From: an uncultured Pelagibacteraceae bacterium
GTDB taxonomy: Bacteria; Pseudomonadota; Alphaproteobacteria; Pelagibacterales; Pelagibacteraceae
Length of the DNA stretch: 44,902 bases
Assembly (NCBI GenBank): GCA_902599605.1
Contig: CACKFV010000009.1
Span: 1 to 44,902, forward strand
Direction: 5' to 3'
This document shows positions 1,777 through 23,679 of the stretch, one piece after another (position 1 is the stretch's first letter; each line of letters starts with the position of its first letter). Below the pieces are notes generated by a model. It did no database searches, was not told where the DNA came from, and saw only the letters and a program-made list of their open reading frames with translations. The position numbers and the translations under genes were made by a program.

Positions 1777-6315
<4,539 letters not shown>

Positions 6316-6354
6316 AAATTAAATAATTTTGAAGATTACTTAAAAAAATTAATC

Positions 6355-7275
6355 TTATGCGATAGATTTTAGAATATTCTTGTTCAAAAAGGAATGCGGA
6401 ATATTTTTTTCTTTTAGCTCGATAATTGAGAAATTTTCGTTATTGCTTAACAATTTTCTCAAACCTTGATTAGTAATTTTGTGGCCACCTTGACAAGAGG
6501 TGATTTTGCCGACCATTTTAAATCCCGATAAATATAAGTCCCCAAGACAATCTAGTATTTTATGATTTACAAATTCTTTTTCATTTCTTAATTTTTCTTT
6601 GTTTAAAACTTTATTTTGTTTAACAACAATCGCATTATCTAAAGAGCCACCTTTTGCAAGATTCAAATTTTTAAGTTTTTCTATATCCTCATACAAGCAA
6701 AATGTTCTTGAACTAAGCATATCTTTTAAATCATCCATATAAATGTTAATATTGTTTTTTTGGGTACTTATTAATTCGTTTTTAAAATTTATCTCAAAAT
6801 CAATTTCTAAACTTATTTTACTTGGCTTAAAGGAAATAAATTTTTCACCATCTTTGTAACTTATTTCTTTATCTATAGTTATAATTTTAATTGGTTGCTC
6901 GCTTATTTCTAAATCAACTAAGTCAATTGCCTCTACAAAATTTTTTGAAGATCCATCAAGTATTGGCACTTCTTCAGAATCTATTTCTATTAGTAAGTTA
7001 TCTACACCTTTTCCATACAATGCTGCCATTAAATGCTCAATAGTTGAGACAGATACACCATATTCATTTGAAATCTTCGTACAGTAAGATGCGCTTGAAA
7101 CATTAAATACACTTGGATAAATAATGTTATTGGAAGATAAGTCAGTTCTTTTAAAATATATTCCGATATTTGGTTTTTGAGGAACTAAAGTAATATTGAC
7201 CTCTTTTCCAGAGTGAAGACCGATACCAGATAGGGTAATTTTTTTTTTTAGAGTTTTTTGTTTTAAAATTGACAT
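6355..7275 (-). CDS. lpxC: UDP-3-O-acyl-N-acetylglucosamine deacetylase LpxC
   Basis: The zinc deacetylase that commits UDP-acyl-GlcNAc to lipid A synthesis, so the cell makes lipid A. Visible family motifs are GIGLHSGK near the N-terminus, the zinc-ligand region STIEHLMAALYG, the second zinc region VNHKILDCLGDLYL (His and Asp), and GGHKITNQGLRKLL, which carries the catalytic histidine. The 306-residue length is typical. In most dcw clusters ftsZ separates ftsA from lpxC; here only 67 bases separate the short ftsA from lpxC. Confidence 0.96.
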   Translation of the reverse strand: MSILKQKTLKKKITLSGIGLHSGKEVNITLVPQKPNIGIYFKRTDLSSNNIIYPSVFNVSSASYCTKISNEYGVSVSTIEHLMAALYGKGVDNLLIEIDSEEVPILDGSSKNFVEAIDLVDLEISEQPIKIITIDKEISYKDGEKFISFKPSKISLEIDFEINFKNELISTQKNNINIYMDDLKDMLSSRTFCLYEDIEKLKNLNLAKGGSLDNAIVVKQNKVLNKEKLRNEKEFVNHKILDCLGDLYLSGFKMVGKITSCQGGHKITNQGLRKLLSNNENFSIIELKEKNIPHSFLNKNILKSIA

Positions 7276-7342
7276 TAGGTGAACTTATATTCATCTGAGA
7301 AATCAAAGAAAAAACAAGTTATGTTACAAAACAATACAAGAT

Positions 7343-8047
7343 TTAATCAAAAAAATTGAACATTTTTTCAAAAAAACCTTGTTTTTTATTATAAAGTCTA
7401 TGGGATATTACCTCCAATGGGTTTATTCCATCAATCACTCTCTTAGCAGCAATACAAGGGCTTATATCGCTTTTTTCTGCAAACCTGCTTGAATATTGAT
7501 GACTGACAATTTTTTTTACCTCAATATTACAATCTTTAAAAATTTTATTTAATGTTTTTACAATTGAGTTATGAACTGTGATAAAACTAATCTCGAGAAT
7601 AAATTCACTGTATATTACGTCCTCTGGAAACTGTAAATATTCTTCACCATTAACTATGTATTTATCAACTAATAAATGAAGTATAACACAATCTTTATTG
7701 TTTCTTATAATTTGTTGTTTAGCATCACTAATTAGTCTTACTATATCAGTCTCTTTTGTTTTATTTGAATTGAATTTATTTTTTAAACTTAAAGAAAATC
7801 GATCATATTTAGCATCGGTAATTAAATAAACTTTTTCGATAAAACTTCCAGCATCCTTTTCAAAATCTTTGATTTTTTCTAAAATAAATTTTGTCAGTAT
7901 GATAAGATTTAGATTATCACCAAGGGTATCTGGCATTAAGTAACTTTTTTGAAAACTAGAGCTAGTGTCTTTGGAGTTAAAACAATCTATATGAAGGTTT
8001 TGACCTACTATTGAAATATAAAAAGATTGATTATCATTTTTAATCAT
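7343..8047 (-). CDS. ftsA: short FtsA-like division protein lacking the ATPase subdomains 2A/2B
   Basis: Position (directly after ftsQ, before lpxC) and sequence point to FtsA, the actin-like protein that ties FtsZ to the membrane. Only 234 residues are present, where FtsA is usually about 410-430. Residues 8-95 resemble the first part of subdomain 1A but lack the GxExGTxK phosphate loop. Residues 101-192 align well with subdomain 1C (DAKQQIIRNNKDCVILHLL, FITVHNSIVKTLNKIF). Residues 193-223 are a short linker and 224-234 (GFFEKMFNFFD) look like the amphipathic membrane-targeting helix. No remainder of the gene exists downstream, because lpxC starts at 7275. The open frame is intact and overlaps ftsQ by 8 bp, so it is probably functional. 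Family homology is inferred by eye. Confidence 0.75.
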   Translation of the reverse strand: MIKNDNQSFYISIVGQNLHIDCFNSKDTSSSFQKSYLMPDTLGDNLNLIILTKFILEKIKDFEKDAGSFIEKVYLITDAKYDRFSLSLKNKFNSNKTKETDIVRLISDAKQQIIRNNKDCVILHLLVDKYIVNGEEYLQFPEDVIYSEFILEISFITVHNSIVKTLNKIFKDCNIEVKKIVSHQYSSRFAEKSDISPCIAAKRVIDGINPLEVISHRLYNKKQGFFEKMFNFFD

Positions 8048-8714
8048 AAGTTATTACCTTATTAGGGACTCTTAAATCTATAGTTATGGATTGATTGAAT
8101 TTTTCGTCATTAATAACTCTATAGCCAAAATTTAAATCATCAATTGCAAAATTAATCGGAAATCTAATTTTTTTTTTATTTTTTAATTCAATGTCTATTC
8201 TTTTACTAGGAAAAAAAATAATTTTTTTGATATTCTTAATGTCAAAGTTAGATTTATTAATAATTTCTATTGTTTGAAATATTTTTTCTATGTCATTAGT
8301 TCCTGTAATTTCAGGAACGTTTTTTGGAAAAGATTCTAAGTTAATAATTTTGCCGTTATCTCCTAAAATAATAAATCCATTTGAATTTTTTACAACACCT
8401 ATGGCCACAGCTGATTCAAGGTAAACTTTGACCTGATTTGGATATATCTTTTTTATATTATAACTTTTAATTGAGTTTATGGAATAAATAAGTTGAAAGG
8501 AATTTTTATTTAGCGCAAAAATATTTGATCCGACTAGATCTGTAAAGTTATTTTCCAAAAAATAATAACCTGCATTATTTAAATCAATTACCTCTATTTT
8601 TTTAATAGAAAAAAAATTATTATGTTTAAAATTCGAGTTATGTATTGAGGACAAAATTAAAAAAATAATTAAATAGAAAAAAATATAGTTTTTCTTATCT
8701 ATTTTTTGAAGCAT
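8040..8714 (-). CDS. ftsQ: cell division protein FtsQ (POTRA domain)
   Basis: A bitopic inner-membrane divisome protein that links FtsB/FtsL and early and late division proteins. The N-terminus has a short cytoplasmic part and one membrane segment (about residues 10-25). A POTRA-type domain follows (FFSIKKIEVIDL to YPNQVKVYLES), then the FtsQ beta domain (GVVKNSNGFIILGDNGKII and later ITIDLRVPNKVI). At 224 residues it is slightly short. It overlaps ddl by 20 bp and ftsA by 8 bp, implying translational coupling. Sequence similarity in this family is low, so the call rests largely on topology, the POTRA pattern and gene order. Confidence 0.85.
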   Translation of the reverse strand: MLQKIDKKNYIFFYLIIFLILSSIHNSNFKHNNFFSIKKIEVIDLNNAGYYFLENNFTDLVGSNIFALNKNSFQLIYSINSIKSYNIKKIYPNQVKVYLESAVAIGVVKNSNGFIILGDNGKIINLESFPKNVPEITGTNDIEKIFQTIEIINKSNFDIKNIKKIIFFPSKRIDIELKNKKKIRFPINFAIDDLNFGYRVINDEKFNQSITIDLRVPNKVITYD

Positions 8715-9606
8715 CTTTTATAATCCAGTCTATTAATGAGAAGAAATTCATTCCACAATGTAATGCTATTTCCGGGACTAATGAAAGATTTGTCATTCCT
8801 GGTTGAGTATTAATTTCCAAAAGATAAAACTTTCCATTATTAAATCTAAAATCAGATCTAGTAACCCCTCTGCACTTTAAAATTTCGTGAGCTTTCAACG
8901 CAATATTCATCACATTTTGATATTCTTTTGGTTTAATATTTACTGGAATAATATGTTTTGTTTTTGCCTTAGAACTGTACTTAGCCTTATAGTCGTAAAA
9001 CTTTCTTTTAGGTTTTAACTCTATTGCTCCTAATTTTTTTTTGCCAAGAATCGCAACTTGAATCTCTCTTCCAGGTATAAATTCTTCAACTAAAATTTCA
9101 TCATAATCTTTAAGTTTTTTTAAATTATTAATAATATTTTTTTCATCACAAATATAAACACCTAAACTTGATCCCTCATTTATAGGTTTAATAACTACAG
9201 GAAACTTAATTTTCTTTTTTAATAATTTTATAACTTCTTTTTTATTAAAATTTGTTCTTAATTTATAAAATTTTGGTGTTAAAATTTTATTTTTTATAAA
9301 TAATTTTTTTGAAATTTCTTTATCCATTGCCATCATAGAAGATAAAACGCCTGAATGAGTGTACTTAACACCTTTACTCTCTAAATAAGTCTGTATAAAA
9401 CCGTCTTCACCAAATCTTCCATGTAAAGCGTTAAAAACAACATGTGGAGAAAATCTATCAATATTTTTTGTTAAATTTTCATCAGGTTCAACTATTCTAC
9501 AGTTATATTTTTTTTTAATGCAATTCTTCACTGCTTTTGCAGTTTTGAGACTAATTGATCTTTCTCCTGAGATACCACCTCCAAGAATAAGAATTCGTTT
9601 TTTCAT
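8695..9606 (-). CDS. ddl: D-alanine--D-alanine ligase
   Basis: Makes the D-Ala-D-Ala dipeptide used by MurF. It is an ATP-grasp enzyme in the cytosol. Seen in order are the N-terminal GGGISGERSISLKTA, the NALHGRFGEDGFIQ motif, the ATP-grasp region MMAMDKEISKKLF, KPINEGSSLGV and EEFIPGREIQVAIL, then the metal/substrate motifs RSDFRFNNGKFYLLEINTQP and GMTNLSLVPEIA. The length of 303 is normal. It sits between murB and ftsQ, the standard dcw position. Confidence 0.96.
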   Translation of the reverse strand: MKKRILILGGGISGERSISLKTAKAVKNCIKKKYNCRIVEPDENLTKNIDRFSPHVVFNALHGRFGEDGFIQTYLESKGVKYTHSGVLSSMMAMDKEISKKLFIKNKILTPKFYKLRTNFNKKEVIKLLKKKIKFPVVIKPINEGSSLGVYICDEKNIINNLKKLKDYDEILVEEFIPGREIQVAILGKKKLGAIELKPKRKFYDYKAKYSSKAKTKHIIPVNIKPKEYQNVMNIALKAHEILKCRGVTRSDFRFNNGKFYLLEINTQPGMTNLSLVPEIALHCGMNFFSLIDWIIKDASKNR

Positions 9607-16467: not shown

Positions 16468-19290
16468 TTACAAATTTTTTATTACTTTATTTAATCCAGT
16501 TGAGTTAGATCCTTTTATCATTAAATAACTGTTATTAGGTAATTGTTTTTTTATCAAATTCAAAATCTCTAATTTATTGTTTAATATTTTGCCTCTCATT
16601 TGTGGTTTTAATTTGTTAAATGTATGTTTTGTATAACTGCCATAAACATGAGTTTTATTTATGTTAGATTTATTAATATATTTCGCAATTTTAATATGAA
16701 GTTTTTTTGAAAATTTTCCTAATTCAAGCATGTTTCCAATCAAAATAAATTTTTTCTTACTATCTTTATAGTTTTTGTCAAATCTTTCTAATGCAAATTT
16801 AAATGAAAGGGGATTTGAATTATAGCTTTCATCAATAATAGTTAAGTTTTTTTTTCCACTTTTATACTTTATTATAGTGCCTCTACTCTGGGAAATTTTG
16901 AAATTTAAAAATAAATTTACAGGTAATGCATCTATATTAAAATAAATAATAATAATACTCAGTGTAGATAAAATATTTTCTTTGAAATCTATTAAATAAT
17001 TAGGAATTAGAAAAAATTTTATTTTCCCTTTTATTAAAAATTTACATAAAAATTTATTTTTATTTTTTCTTTCCCCTAGGTAAACAACATCAGCTAATTT
17101 ATTTTTTTTACTGAATGTAGTAATATTTAGATTTCTCGCTTTTGCTTTTGAAATAAAATAATTGCAGTATTTATCGTCCTTATTTATAATCATAACTCCC
17201 ATGGGAAAAATATTATTTATTATTTCGCTTTTAGCTTTTGCAATCTCATCTAGATTCTTAAAATTCTTAATATGAGCATATGAGATATTTGTAATTAGAC
17301 CAAGATTAGGTCTTATTAGCTTTGTTAAAGTGTCTATTTCTCCTTTTTTATCCATTCCTACTTCTAAAACTGAGAACTTTGTCGATTGAGGTGCATTAAT
17401 AATACTTAAAGGCACACCATATTTATTATTAAAGGAATTTTTTGAATAATATGTTTTATCTAATTTATTTAAACAAAATCCAGTTAAGTCTTTAACTGAA
17501 GTTTTTCCAGCAGATCCGGTTATTGCAATATTATTACTGTCTAATGACTTTCTATAAACTGAGCTAAATTTATTTAGTTCCCCAAAAGGATTTTTACTAA
17601 ATATATTTTTGGAATTTTTTGATTTTTTATTAGTAATTGCTAAAATTGCATTATTTTTTATCGCCTCAATTCCAAATTTATTTCCATCAAATTTTGGACC
17701 CCTCACCCCAAAAAATACTGAATTTTTTTTAATATCTTTAGAGTTTAAAGACACTGAGTTTATTAGAGTTCTTTTATTTAAAATTTTATTATTAAAAGTT
17801 TCAGTTAAGATATTTGTTTTGAGAGAATTCGATAATAAATTATTCTTTTTTCTAATAGCTTTAATAATCTCTAATTTATCCGAGAAAAAAGATCTTTTTT
17901 TATATTCTTGATAATTTTCGTGTCCTTTTCCAGCAACAATTAAAACATCACCTGAATTTAATTCACTAACAGCTTTTGAAATAGCATCAGCTCGTGAAGA
18001 AATTTCAACATAGTTTTTTTTCTTAATTTTCCTCTTTATCTGGTTTCTTATTACCTTGGGGCTTTCAAACCTTGGATTGTCGTCAGTTAAATATATTTTA
18101 TCACAATACCTGTTAGCAATACCCCCCATTAAAGGTCTTTTGCTTTTATCTCTATCCCCTCCACATCCAAATACTAATGAAATTTTACTTAAAGGGTAAT
18201 CTTCTTTTATATTTAATATAACTGTTTTTAAAGCATCTGGAGTATGTGCATAATCAAGTATTACTCTTGATTTATTTTTTAGTTTACCAATCTGCTCTAA
18301 TCTTCCATTGACAGGTTTAATCTTACTTAAATTCCTTAGAATGGAGTCAATTTTAATGCCTGATAGATATGCAGCCAAAACTGCAAAAAGTAAATTTTTT
18401 ATCTGAATGCTACCAATTAGATAAGAATTGAATGAATAATCTTTATTTAAAAGACTAAAACTAATTTTTTTTTTATCGTTGATTTTTTGAATTTTTTTCA
18501 AATTAATGAAAGAATTTTCGCTGCCTATTTTATAAGTCTTCAGTTTCTTTTTCTTTGAAATCTTTTTAAGATCTTTTTCTTGAGGTATTCCATTTTCAAA
18601 AATTATATTTCCTTTATTCAGCAATAATTTATCAAAAAGAATGAGTTTTGAATTCAAATAATCTTTAAATGTTTTATGATAATCTAGATGATCCCTAGAC
18701 AAGTTTGTAAACAATGCGGTTTTTAAATTTAATCCATCTAATCTATGTTGTTTTAAACCATGACTTGATGCTTCTATAATTACGTTATCAATATTTAAAT
18801 TTTTTAATTTCTGTAAAATTTGATGCATTTTAATTGGATCTATTGATGTATTGTTCGTCTTTAACTTAATTTTTTTTGATAAAATACCTAAAGTTCCTAT
18901 GGCAGCAACTTTTTTTTTATTTAAAGACAATATTTGATAAAAAAAATTTGCAATTGAGGTTTTGCCATTTGTGCCAGTTAAGGCGATGATATTTTTAGGT
19001 TTTTTTTTATAAAAATTGCTTGCAGCCTCTGCTAATGCTTTTCTTGGATTTTTATTTTTAATAAATAAAATTTTTTTTTTATTAAATCCCTCAAAATTTA
19101 GGTTTGAAATAATAATTTTTGAGCCATTTTTTATAGCGTCATTAATATAATTATTCCCTTTTAATTTATTTCCTTGGATAGAAAAAAAAATATCGTTCTT
19201 TTTGCAATCCTTGCTGTTAAATCTAATACTATTAAATTTTATAGATTTATATGCTGGTTTTATATTTTTAATTAATTTACCCAATAACAT
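16468..19290 (-). CDS. murEF: fused MurE-MurF ligase (meso-DAP-adding and D-Ala-D-Ala-adding)
   Basis: One uninterrupted 940-residue frame holds two Mur ligases that act in consecutive steps. Residues 1 to about 480 are MurE: P-loop TGTNGKTS (105-112), ASSHGLKQHR, DYAHTPDAL and the DNPR motif (DDNPRFESP), which marks a meso-diaminopimelate enzyme. Residues from about 490 are MurF: substrate domain (NSVFFGVRGPKFDG), P-loop GSAGKTS (592-598), EVGMDKKGEID, DESYNSNPLS and GNMLELG near the C-terminus. Both halves look complete and the linker is short. It replaces the usual separate murE and murF genes. MurE-MurF fusions are known elsewhere, for example in Bordetella. Confidence 0.93.
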   Translation of the reverse strand: MLLGKLIKNIKPAYKSIKFNSIRFNSKDCKKNDIFFSIQGNKLKGNNYINDAIKNGSKIIISNLNFEGFNKKKILFIKNKNPRKALAEAASNFYKKKPKNIIALTGTNGKTSIANFFYQILSLNKKKVAAIGTLGILSKKIKLKTNNTSIDPIKMHQILQKLKNLNIDNVIIEASSHGLKQHRLDGLNLKTALFTNLSRDHLDYHKTFKDYLNSKLILFDKLLLNKGNIIFENGIPQEKDLKKISKKKKLKTYKIGSENSFINLKKIQKINDKKKISFSLLNKDYSFNSYLIGSIQIKNLLFAVLAAYLSGIKIDSILRNLSKIKPVNGRLEQIGKLKNKSRVILDYAHTPDALKTVILNIKEDYPLSKISLVFGCGGDRDKSKRPLMGGIANRYCDKIYLTDDNPRFESPKVIRNQIKRKIKKKNYVEISSRADAISKAVSELNSGDVLIVAGKGHENYQEYKKRSFFSDKLEIIKAIRKKNNLLSNSLKTNILTETFNNKILNKRTLINSVSLNSKDIKKNSVFFGVRGPKFDGNKFGIEAIKNNAILAITNKKSKNSKNIFSKNPFGELNKFSSVYRKSLDSNNIAITGSAGKTSVKDLTGFCLNKLDKTYYSKNSFNNKYGVPLSIINAPQSTKFSVLEVGMDKKGEIDTLTKLIRPNLGLITNISYAHIKNFKNLDEIAKAKSEIINNIFPMGVMIINKDDKYCNYFISKAKARNLNITTFSKKNKLADVVYLGERKNKNKFLCKFLIKGKIKFFLIPNYLIDFKENILSTLSIIIIYFNIDALPVNLFLNFKISQSRGTIIKYKSGKKNLTIIDESYNSNPLSFKFALERFDKNYKDSKKKFILIGNMLELGKFSKKLHIKIAKYINKSNINKTHVYGSYTKHTFNKLKPQMRGKILNNKLEILNLIKKQLPNNSYLMIKGSNSTGLNKVIKNL

Positions 19291-22239: not shown

Positions 22240-23679
22240 TTAATTTTTTTGTCTTCTTAAAAATGCTGGTATTTCTAATTCATCTTCTTCATTAGTATCA
22301 TCATCCCCATTAATATTTGTTTCGTGATCAGAGTTTACATTTTGACTCTCATCAAATAATTGAGGATCTTGCGCATCCAAATTGAAGTTTTCAAGTCCAT
22401 TAGACTCGTCGCTTGAAATATTTGAATCATTATCGTTTAAAATCAGTTTTTCATCGAGAGAGTTCTCTTCGTTTTCAGACTCACTTGAAATAGTATTTTC
22501 TACTGCCATTTTTTCGTCCACCATAGATGAAATCAAATCGTTTTCTGAAACTTTAATATCATTCGTTTCTATTTTTAATGCATTAGCACCACTTGTGGAC
22601 AATCCTTTGTTCATTTCAAAAGAGTAATTAGGTTTCATATTTGAGAAATCCGAATAACCGGGATTTCGATTTTGAATTCTATGTACCATATTAATTACTG
22701 ATTTTGATTCAGGTTGTTGTCCATCTAATGAAGTTGCAACAATAGATACCCTAAATTTTTCCTCTAATGACGGATCAATTATACAGCCCTTAATAAATTC
22801 AACTTCCGCATCAACTTCAGAGGTAATTTTTTTGACAACATCATCTACCTCAAAAAGTGTAGGGTTTTTTGCCGTTATATTAATAAGTAAGCCTTTTGCA
22901 CTTTTCAACGAATAGTCATCGATAAGAGGATTAGTCATAGCTTGCTCTGCGGCTTTCAAAGCTCTGCCCTCACCTTCGGCTTCTCCGGTACCCATCATTG
23001 CTTTGCCCATAGAGCTCATGATAGTTTCAACATCAGCATAATCTAAATTTACTAGACCAGGACGTACCATTAAATCTGTAACACTTTGAACACCTTGTAA
23101 AAGAACATCATTTGAAAGTTCAAATGCTTCTTCAAAACCCGTTTGCTCATTAGCAATTTTAAATAAGTTTTGATTAGGAACTACTATAATAGTATCTACG
23201 TGTTTCCTTAACTCTTCTAAGCCTTGTTGTGCTCTTCTCATTTTAGATGACCCTTCATATAAGAAAGGCAAAGTTACCACGCCTACTGTTAAGATATTAA
23301 GTTCCTTTGCAGCTCTAGCAATTACGTGAGCAGAACCAGTACCCGTTCCACCGCCCATTCCTGCAGTTATAAAAACCATATTTGCTCCTTGTAAACAATT
23401 TACTATTTCATTCAAAGATTCTTCGGCTGCAGCGTGGCCAATATCAATTTTTGATCCAGCCCCAAGACCTTTCGTTAAATTTAAACCAATTTGTATTTTT
23501 GCTTTTGCTTTACTGTGAATTAAATCTTGTGCATCAGTATTTACTGCAACAAACTCAACACCCTGTAATCCACTTTCGATCATCTTATTTATTGCATTTC
23601 CTCCGGCACCACCTACACCTAAAACCAGTATTCTAGGTTTCAGCTCCTTTATCTCTGGTGTTTTAAAATTAATTGTCAT
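22240..23679 (-). CDS. ftsZ: cell division GTPase FtsZ, relocated next to mraZ
   Basis: The tubulin-like GTPase that forms the division ring. The GTPase domain has GVGGAGGNAINKM (21-33), NTDAQDL (48-53), the tubulin signature GGGTGTGS (109-116) and the catalytic T7-loop region NLDYADVETIM. A long acidic Asn/Ser/Asp-rich linker (about 380-465) follows, and the protein ends with the conserved partner-binding peptide IPAFLRRQ. It is preceded by an unusually strong Shine-Dalgarno site. It lies between mraZ and rsmH; in most bacteria it follows ftsA. Length 479 is on the long side because of the linker. Confidence 0.98.
   Translation of the reverse strand: MTINFKTPEIKELKPRILVLGVGGAGGNAINKMIESGLQGVEFVAVNTDAQDLIHSKAKAKIQIGLNLTKGLGAGSKIDIGHAAAEESLNEIVNCLQGANMVFITAGMGGGTGTGSAHVIARAAKELNILTVGVVTLPFLYEGSSKMRRAQQGLEELRKHVDTIIVVPNQNLFKIANEQTGFEEAFELSNDVLLQGVQSVTDLMVRPGLVNLDYADVETIMSSMGKAMMGTGEAEGEGRALKAAEQAMTNPLIDDYSLKSAKGLLINITAKNPTLFEVDDVVKKITSEVDAEVEFIKGCIIDPSLEEKFRVSIVATSLDGQQPESKSVINMVHRIQNRNPGYSDFSNMKPNYSFEMNKGLSTSGANALKIETNDIKVSENDLISSMVDEKMAVENTISSESENEENSLDEKLILNDNDSNISSDESNGLENFNLDAQDPQLFDESQNVNSDHETNINGDDDTNEEDELEIPAFLRRQKN

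Follow-up and report, generated by a model that had tools for sequence, protein, structure and literature searches.

What can FtsA do in cell division once it has been cut to 234 residues? No FtsZ anchor is more widely conserved than FtsA, which is modelled as an actin-like polymer dependent on ATP. Pelagibacter, in which the short gene recurs, is among the most abundant genera on Earth. We analysed a 44,902-nucleotide stretch of DNA from an uncultured Pelagibacteraceae bacterium (the window), starting from an earlier note that had described the gene in the ftsA slot as FtsA reduced to subdomain 1C plus a membrane tail.

Short ftsA in the dcw Cluster

The window carries a dcw cluster comprising ligA, bamD, lpxC, ftsA, ftsQ, ddl, murB, murC, murG, ftsW, murD, mraY, murE-murF, ftsI, mraW, ftsZ and mraZ, with gene names read from the ORF list and its translations and several of them backed by Pfam. 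A 940-aa ORF (16468-19290) contains the Mur ligase middle and C-terminal domains twice each and represents a murE-murF fusion. The ftsA slot and its neighbours are:

6355..7275, minus strand: lpxC, the downstream neighbour used for synteny (ORF and Pfam)
7343..8047, minus strand: short ftsA (domain II-less FtsA), 234 aa (ORF, profile match and predicted structure)
8040..8714, minus strand: ftsQ (weak Pfam match and synteny)

The 234-residue gene was confirmed to occupy the ftsA slot, directly after ftsQ and ahead of lpxC, with an 8-base overlap with ftsQ and 67 bases between the end of the ORF and lpxC. The top NCBIfam family of its product was FtsA (TIGR01174; E = 1.9e-13), with protein residues 51-188 matched to profile positions 49-185 of 371. 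The score of 50.3 bits lies below the curated cut-off of 175.85 bits, and the long Pelagibacter FtsA forms likewise score under it. The protein also matched FtsA chains in a profile comparison (E = 1.1e-6) and displayed a weak match to SHS2_FTSA, the 1C domain (E = 0.0011). A 233-aa short FtsA from another genome (L204) had no NCBIfam match at E 1 and would therefore probably escape automatic annotation.

The window genome is 86% complete and consists of 33 contigs. We weighed whether the short gene could stem from a misassembly or a frame error in the window, or whether another gene supplies domain II. An FtsA-profile search of this genome returned, besides the slot protein, MreB (344 aa) and a protein of 642 aa, about the size of DnaK, and TIGR01174 searches of 16 near-complete genomes returned nothing beyond the slot protein and proteins the size of MreB and DnaK; no second FtsA or free-standing domain II was found in the window genome or in complete genomes. 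The same short length was seen in dozens of independent assemblies, single-contig genomes included. An error or a domain II acting in trans is thus refuted by recurrence, the profile searches and the 67-base gap to lpxC, and we put its probability at next to nil. The earlier note had warned of a full-length FtsA elsewhere in the genome and of full-length relatives betraying a misassembly; the former did not turn up among the profile matches, and the long forms of the same genus form a separate allele class.

Domain Architecture and Predicted Structure

An AlphaFold2 model of the window protein was built with 57 sequences (pLDDT 83.4, pTM 0.78). The parts of the protein were assigned as follows:

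7808..8047, minus strand: residues 1-80, N-terminal part of subdomain 1A (b1-b3, a1, b4), with the phosphate-1 DxG lost
7571..7807, minus strand: residues 81-159, subdomain 1C (SHS2-like)
7472..7570, minus strand: residues 160-192, helix, b5 and a2, which lead back into subdomain 1A and after which domain II would begin
7430..7462, minus strand: residues 196-206, last 1A helix, which follows domain II in long relatives
7412..7429, minus strand: residues 207-212, GxNxxE motif, nearly fixed among short forms but not among long ones
7346..7381, minus strand: residues 223-234, amphipathic C-terminal tail (QGFFEKMFNFFD), F226/F230/F233 conserved (sequence)

In the model, 1A begins with b1-b3, a1 and b4 (residues 7-77) and is followed by 1C (81-159); the chain then runs through the helix, b5 and a2 (160-189) to the last 1A helix (197-205), and the tail holds one more helix (225-230). 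The top 19 chains in a Foldseek search with the model were all FtsA (E = 6.6e-12 to 6.8e-9). VIA-align placed residues 5-208 on V. maritimus FtsA 7-389 over 200 residues (rmsd 2.3 Å; Z 14.5), so that the start and end match those of FtsA itself and domain II is skipped. The model, Foldseek and the superposition thus all recover subdomain 1A with an FtsA-type 1C insertion, and alignment to long relatives and to FtsA structures shows 2A and 2B to be absent; none of the phosphate-1, phosphate-2 and adenosine motifs is present. As predicted by the model, the window protein is a folded FtsA domain I (1A+1C) followed by a short linker and the tail, with domain II cleanly absent.

The C-terminal amphipathic membrane-targeting helix is recognised by sequence only. 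F226, F230 and F233 are conserved in 94-100% of short forms, the helical moment of the window tail is suggestive only (shuffle p = 0.06), and p < 0.05 was reached in 56% of 91 tails. E63 and H124 are invariant residues of the family, and Y185 is kept together with the tail phenylalanines. The three fixed positions of GxNxxE are occupied in 94, 97 and 100% of short forms vs 36, 50 and 59% of long forms.

The earlier picture of the protein held in part. The phosphate loop, 2A and 2B are indeed missing (motif check and alignments) and the amphipathic tail remains in the sequence. A reduction to 1C plus tail is not what was found, since the 1A elements b1-b3, a1, b4, b5, a2 and the last helix are also present, and 1C, which had been placed at about 101-192, actually lies at about 81-159. 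A predicted structure with no 1C fold would have spoken against the note, and a 1C fold is seen in the AlphaFold model; in the comparison with FtsA structures that it had called for, domain I superposes and domain II is absent. Its expectation that the protein binds neither ATP nor, through 2B, FtsZ in the known way is supported at the sequence level by the absence of the ATP site and of the 2B FtsZ site.

Excision of Domain II

When short and long forms were aligned, the match broke after the 1A helix 'SSYAKS' and restarted at 'ICxxGLxLxxGLNKQEV..KQGFFEKLFHFF', which is the last 1A helix plus the tail; across this junction the short form L104 reads ...SNYAKSFTKNKSFANICESGLKLMQGINKQEVVIVPRKLEKKGFFERLFHFFK. 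Long relatives of the same genus show an exact excision in the alignment, and the event is the removal of domain II (2A+2B) from its place between two 1A helices, the one that follows 1C and the last one. A long relative of 369 aa (L112) models as full FtsA (pLDDT 85), with Z 31.4 over 333 residues against 7q6f. The long forms carry the phosphate-1 motif (D in 95%, G in 100%) and retain the phosphate-2 and adenosine motifs, and the short forms have lost phosphate-1 too. The half-size form is a variant of known FtsA.

Two other Pelagibacteraceae genera (L181-L184 and L185, L187-L189) have full-length FtsA of 390-398 aa, matching TIGR01174 with E = 2e-35 and 1e-27, in which the phosphate-1, phosphate-2 and adenosine motifs are all lost. 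With short forms on one side and full-length motif-free forms on the other, the ATP site of FtsA appears, from its motifs, to have been dismantled by two different routes in Pelagibacteraceae.

Distribution Across Genomes

A search model built from six short proteins matched 274 of 399 genus genomes and 52 of the 57 that are at least 90% complete, counts that also take in long forms, whose match covers the part shared with the short ones. All named matching relatives were Pelagibacteraceae/Candidatus Pelagibacter. At 84 genus loci that were read whole, the ORF in the slot was 222-237 aa long in 62 and 363-398 aa in 22, with none between; a long FtsA of 369 aa (L203, genome G433) and the 233-aa short FtsA mentioned above (L204, genome G400) represent the two classes. 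Chance does not account for a short ORF that recurs in this position across dozens of species. In a family-wide scan, long frames of 370-401 aa were present in 51 of about 176 matched Pelagibacter genomes (a hand count from the scan table). FtsA was full length in the sampled genera outside Pelagibacter (390-411 aa) and measured 393-396 aa in the other family sampled, so that the comparison across Pelagibacterales proposed by the earlier note gives a short form recurrent in Pelagibacter and full-length forms in the other genera sampled. An even sample of 386 genomes of the class yielded short frames in Pelagibacter only; the search model is Pelagibacter-built and weak at that distance, and this result is therefore no proof of restriction to the genus.

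Some genomes gave no FtsA match. Absence of ftsA was rejected as the explanation, because seven of nine such near-complete genomes that were checked also gave no LpxC match and the other two had LpxC at or near a contig end, indicating that the ftsA contig is missing or cut. Among the papers searched, none deals with SAR11 FtsA.

Selection on Short ftsA

In close pairs, dN/dS of short ftsA was 0.10-0.32, compared to 0.04-0.17 for ddl, lpxC, bamD and murB. Short ftsA is under purifying selection, somewhat relaxed, as indicated by a dN/dS above that of the neighbouring mur and lpxC genes. Three observations lean towards a decaying remnant with no essential role: dN/dS exceeds that of most neighbouring genes, the short ftsA of a complete single-contig genome (L200, G012) is broken in two by a frameshift within an A/T run, and a long ftsA (L022, G010) contains an in-frame TAA stop. 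The last two may reflect either sequencing error or real decay. Against decay, open frames of 222-237 aa are kept at 62 sampled loci, dN/dS is far below 1, E63 and H124 are invariant and the tail is conserved. Purifying selection already disfavours the remnant reading, which we regard as very improbable.

History of the ftsA Locus

The genealogy of ftsA conflicts with that of its neighbours. In the FtsA tree built on shared columns, short forms make up one clade within the long ones (SH-aLRT 97). In the tree of ddl, lpxC, bamD and murB they do not, and a single short clade is rejected (delta lnL 202; AU p = 6e-6); a murC, murB and ddl tree needs four changes, with long L125 beside short L102 and long L094 beside short L116. 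This conflict between FtsA and neighbour genes points to allele exchange.

Divergence along the locus was uneven, with dS between the window and L071 rising from 0.31 in ddl to 0.45 in ftsA, 0.64 in lpxC and 1.32 in bamD. Jumps in dS over ddl-ftsQ-ftsA-lpxC-bamD were also seen in close-relative pairs (window 5482-9606 and matching loci). Such rises and jumps indicate frequent recombination at the ftsA locus, and together these sequence comparisons suggest that ftsA alleles have been exchanged between lineages.

Repeated parallel loss of domain II, rather than one loss followed by ftsA exchange, is a possibility that we hold to be doubtful. It accommodates the rejection of a single short clade by neighbour genes and the four changes on the murC-murB-ddl tree, and a grouping of short L116 with long L094 was not rejected in the FtsA tree (p = 0.077). 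It is opposed by the single short clade in the FtsA tree, by the rejection (p = 0.004) of a constraint that unites the long group of 369 aa with the short group of L204 type, and by the dS jumps that indicate recombination. One deletion with exchange of ftsA between lineages explains most of the tree conflict. If alleles were exchanged in this way, half and full FtsA would be interchangeable in the same divisome.

FtsZ and Its Membrane Anchor

22240..23679, minus strand: ftsZ, 479 aa, between mraZ and mraW
22243..22275, minus strand: FtsZ C-terminal peptide EIPAFLRRQKN, retained alongside short and long FtsA alike

The FtsZ C-terminal peptide, which the earlier note had also reported as kept, was found as EIPAFLRRQKN, and in all 24 Pelagibacter genomes read, whether FtsA is short or long, the FtsZ C-terminus is EIPAFLRRQK followed by a single further residue. 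The ftsZ gene lies about 15 kb from ftsA and does not adjoin it, with a similar spacing in two further genomes (G433 and G418). FtsZ binds subdomain 2B of FtsA (PDB 4A2A). An invariant peptide implies that it still has a partner, and in short-FtsA genomes this partner cannot be FtsA-2B.

Profile searches for other anchors gave no SepF match above cut-off and only sub-threshold matches to MinC. ZapA, present in 19 of 20 genomes, was rejected as a membrane anchor, as it is a bundler in known systems.

Two arrangements could hold FtsZ at the membrane. Short FtsA may still be the tether, an ATP-free anchor and adaptor in one, with the peptide on a relocated site in domain I or the GxNxxE linker; the invariance of the peptide in short-FtsA genomes, the SepF and MinC results and the near-invariance of GxNxxE in short forms only are all consistent with this. 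The known FtsZ site sits in the missing 2B, though, and conservation of the peptide is explicable by other partners, and we consider such a relocated contact unlikely, if far from negligible. Alternatively, the Z-ring in most sampled Pelagibacter would be held at the membrane without FtsA-2B by another anchor of the FtsZ peptide, half FtsA would serve solely as a nucleotide-free hub for late proteins, and full and half alleles would have been exchanged and hence be interchangeable. We put this fuller scenario forward tentatively, as possible rather than probable.

Proposed Role and Comparison With Known Systems

The best explanation, to which we give somewhat better than even chances, is that the short gene descends from ftsA through loss of domain II by an internal in-frame deletion, that 1A, 1C and the tail were kept, and that the product acts as a nucleotide-independent membrane adaptor. 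The deletion would have removed 2A and 2B while domain I and the membrane tail stayed. Missing domain II, short FtsA should be unable to bind ATP, to form FtsA protofilaments or to hold FtsZ through 2B, and it would sit on the membrane via its tail. FtsZ would reach the membrane by a new contact with short FtsA or by another anchor.

FtsN docks in the 1A-1C cleft of known FtsA, longitudinal filament contacts are made by 2A-2B and the lateral contacts of double filaments use 1C (PMC7613929). Since the FtsN cleft, the 1C lateral surface and the tail are kept and the other surfaces lost, we infer a nucleotide-free adaptor for later proteins, in which the 1A-1C cleft or 1C surface, the known FtsN site, would bring in or activate the proteins that act later in division. 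The best reading is thus still the one proposed by the earlier note, a membrane adaptor for other components of the divisome; the note's restriction to 1C does not stand, as 1A is present and the FtsN site is the cleft between 1A and 1C (PMC7613929). Counting against the adaptor explanation, the helical moment of the window tail is no more than suggestive, constraint on short ftsA is relaxed relative to the neighbouring mur and lpxC genes, and the invariant FtsZ peptide could reflect a persisting FtsA-FtsZ contact.

The short form would be a natural, selected FtsA that has neither ATP site, filament interface nor FtsZ site. Evolution would thereby have separated the two jobs of FtsA, tether of FtsZ and adaptor of the late divisome, and the occurrence of full and half forms in close relatives makes the need of FtsA for ATP and polymerisation directly testable.

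Among known systems, short FtsA shares with FtsA (TIGR01174; 7Q6D/7Q6F/7Q6I, 1E4G, 4A2A) the slot after ftsQ, the 1A/1C order, the last 1A helix, the amphipathic tail and sequence descent via long relatives in the same genus. It differs in lacking domain II and all three ATP motifs, and therefore has no known site for ATP, filament formation or the FtsZ peptide. PilM, the type IV pilus adaptor, shares the actin-like fold with 1C (Z 12.0 to the model), and its 1A-1C cleft binds the short cytoplasmic tail of a bitopic membrane protein (PMC7613929). However, PilM has domain II, binds ATP and belongs to another operon, and the full actin-like fold in a pil operon is not what the window holds. The cytoplasmic domain of GspL/EpsL (type II secretion) is likewise actin-like, comprises 224-229 residues and is a membrane adaptor, and so offers a precedent in kind, although the TM-score is just 0.35-0.40 and a transmembrane helix takes the place of the amphipathic tail. 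The subdomain set of GspL/EpsL also differs from that of short FtsA.
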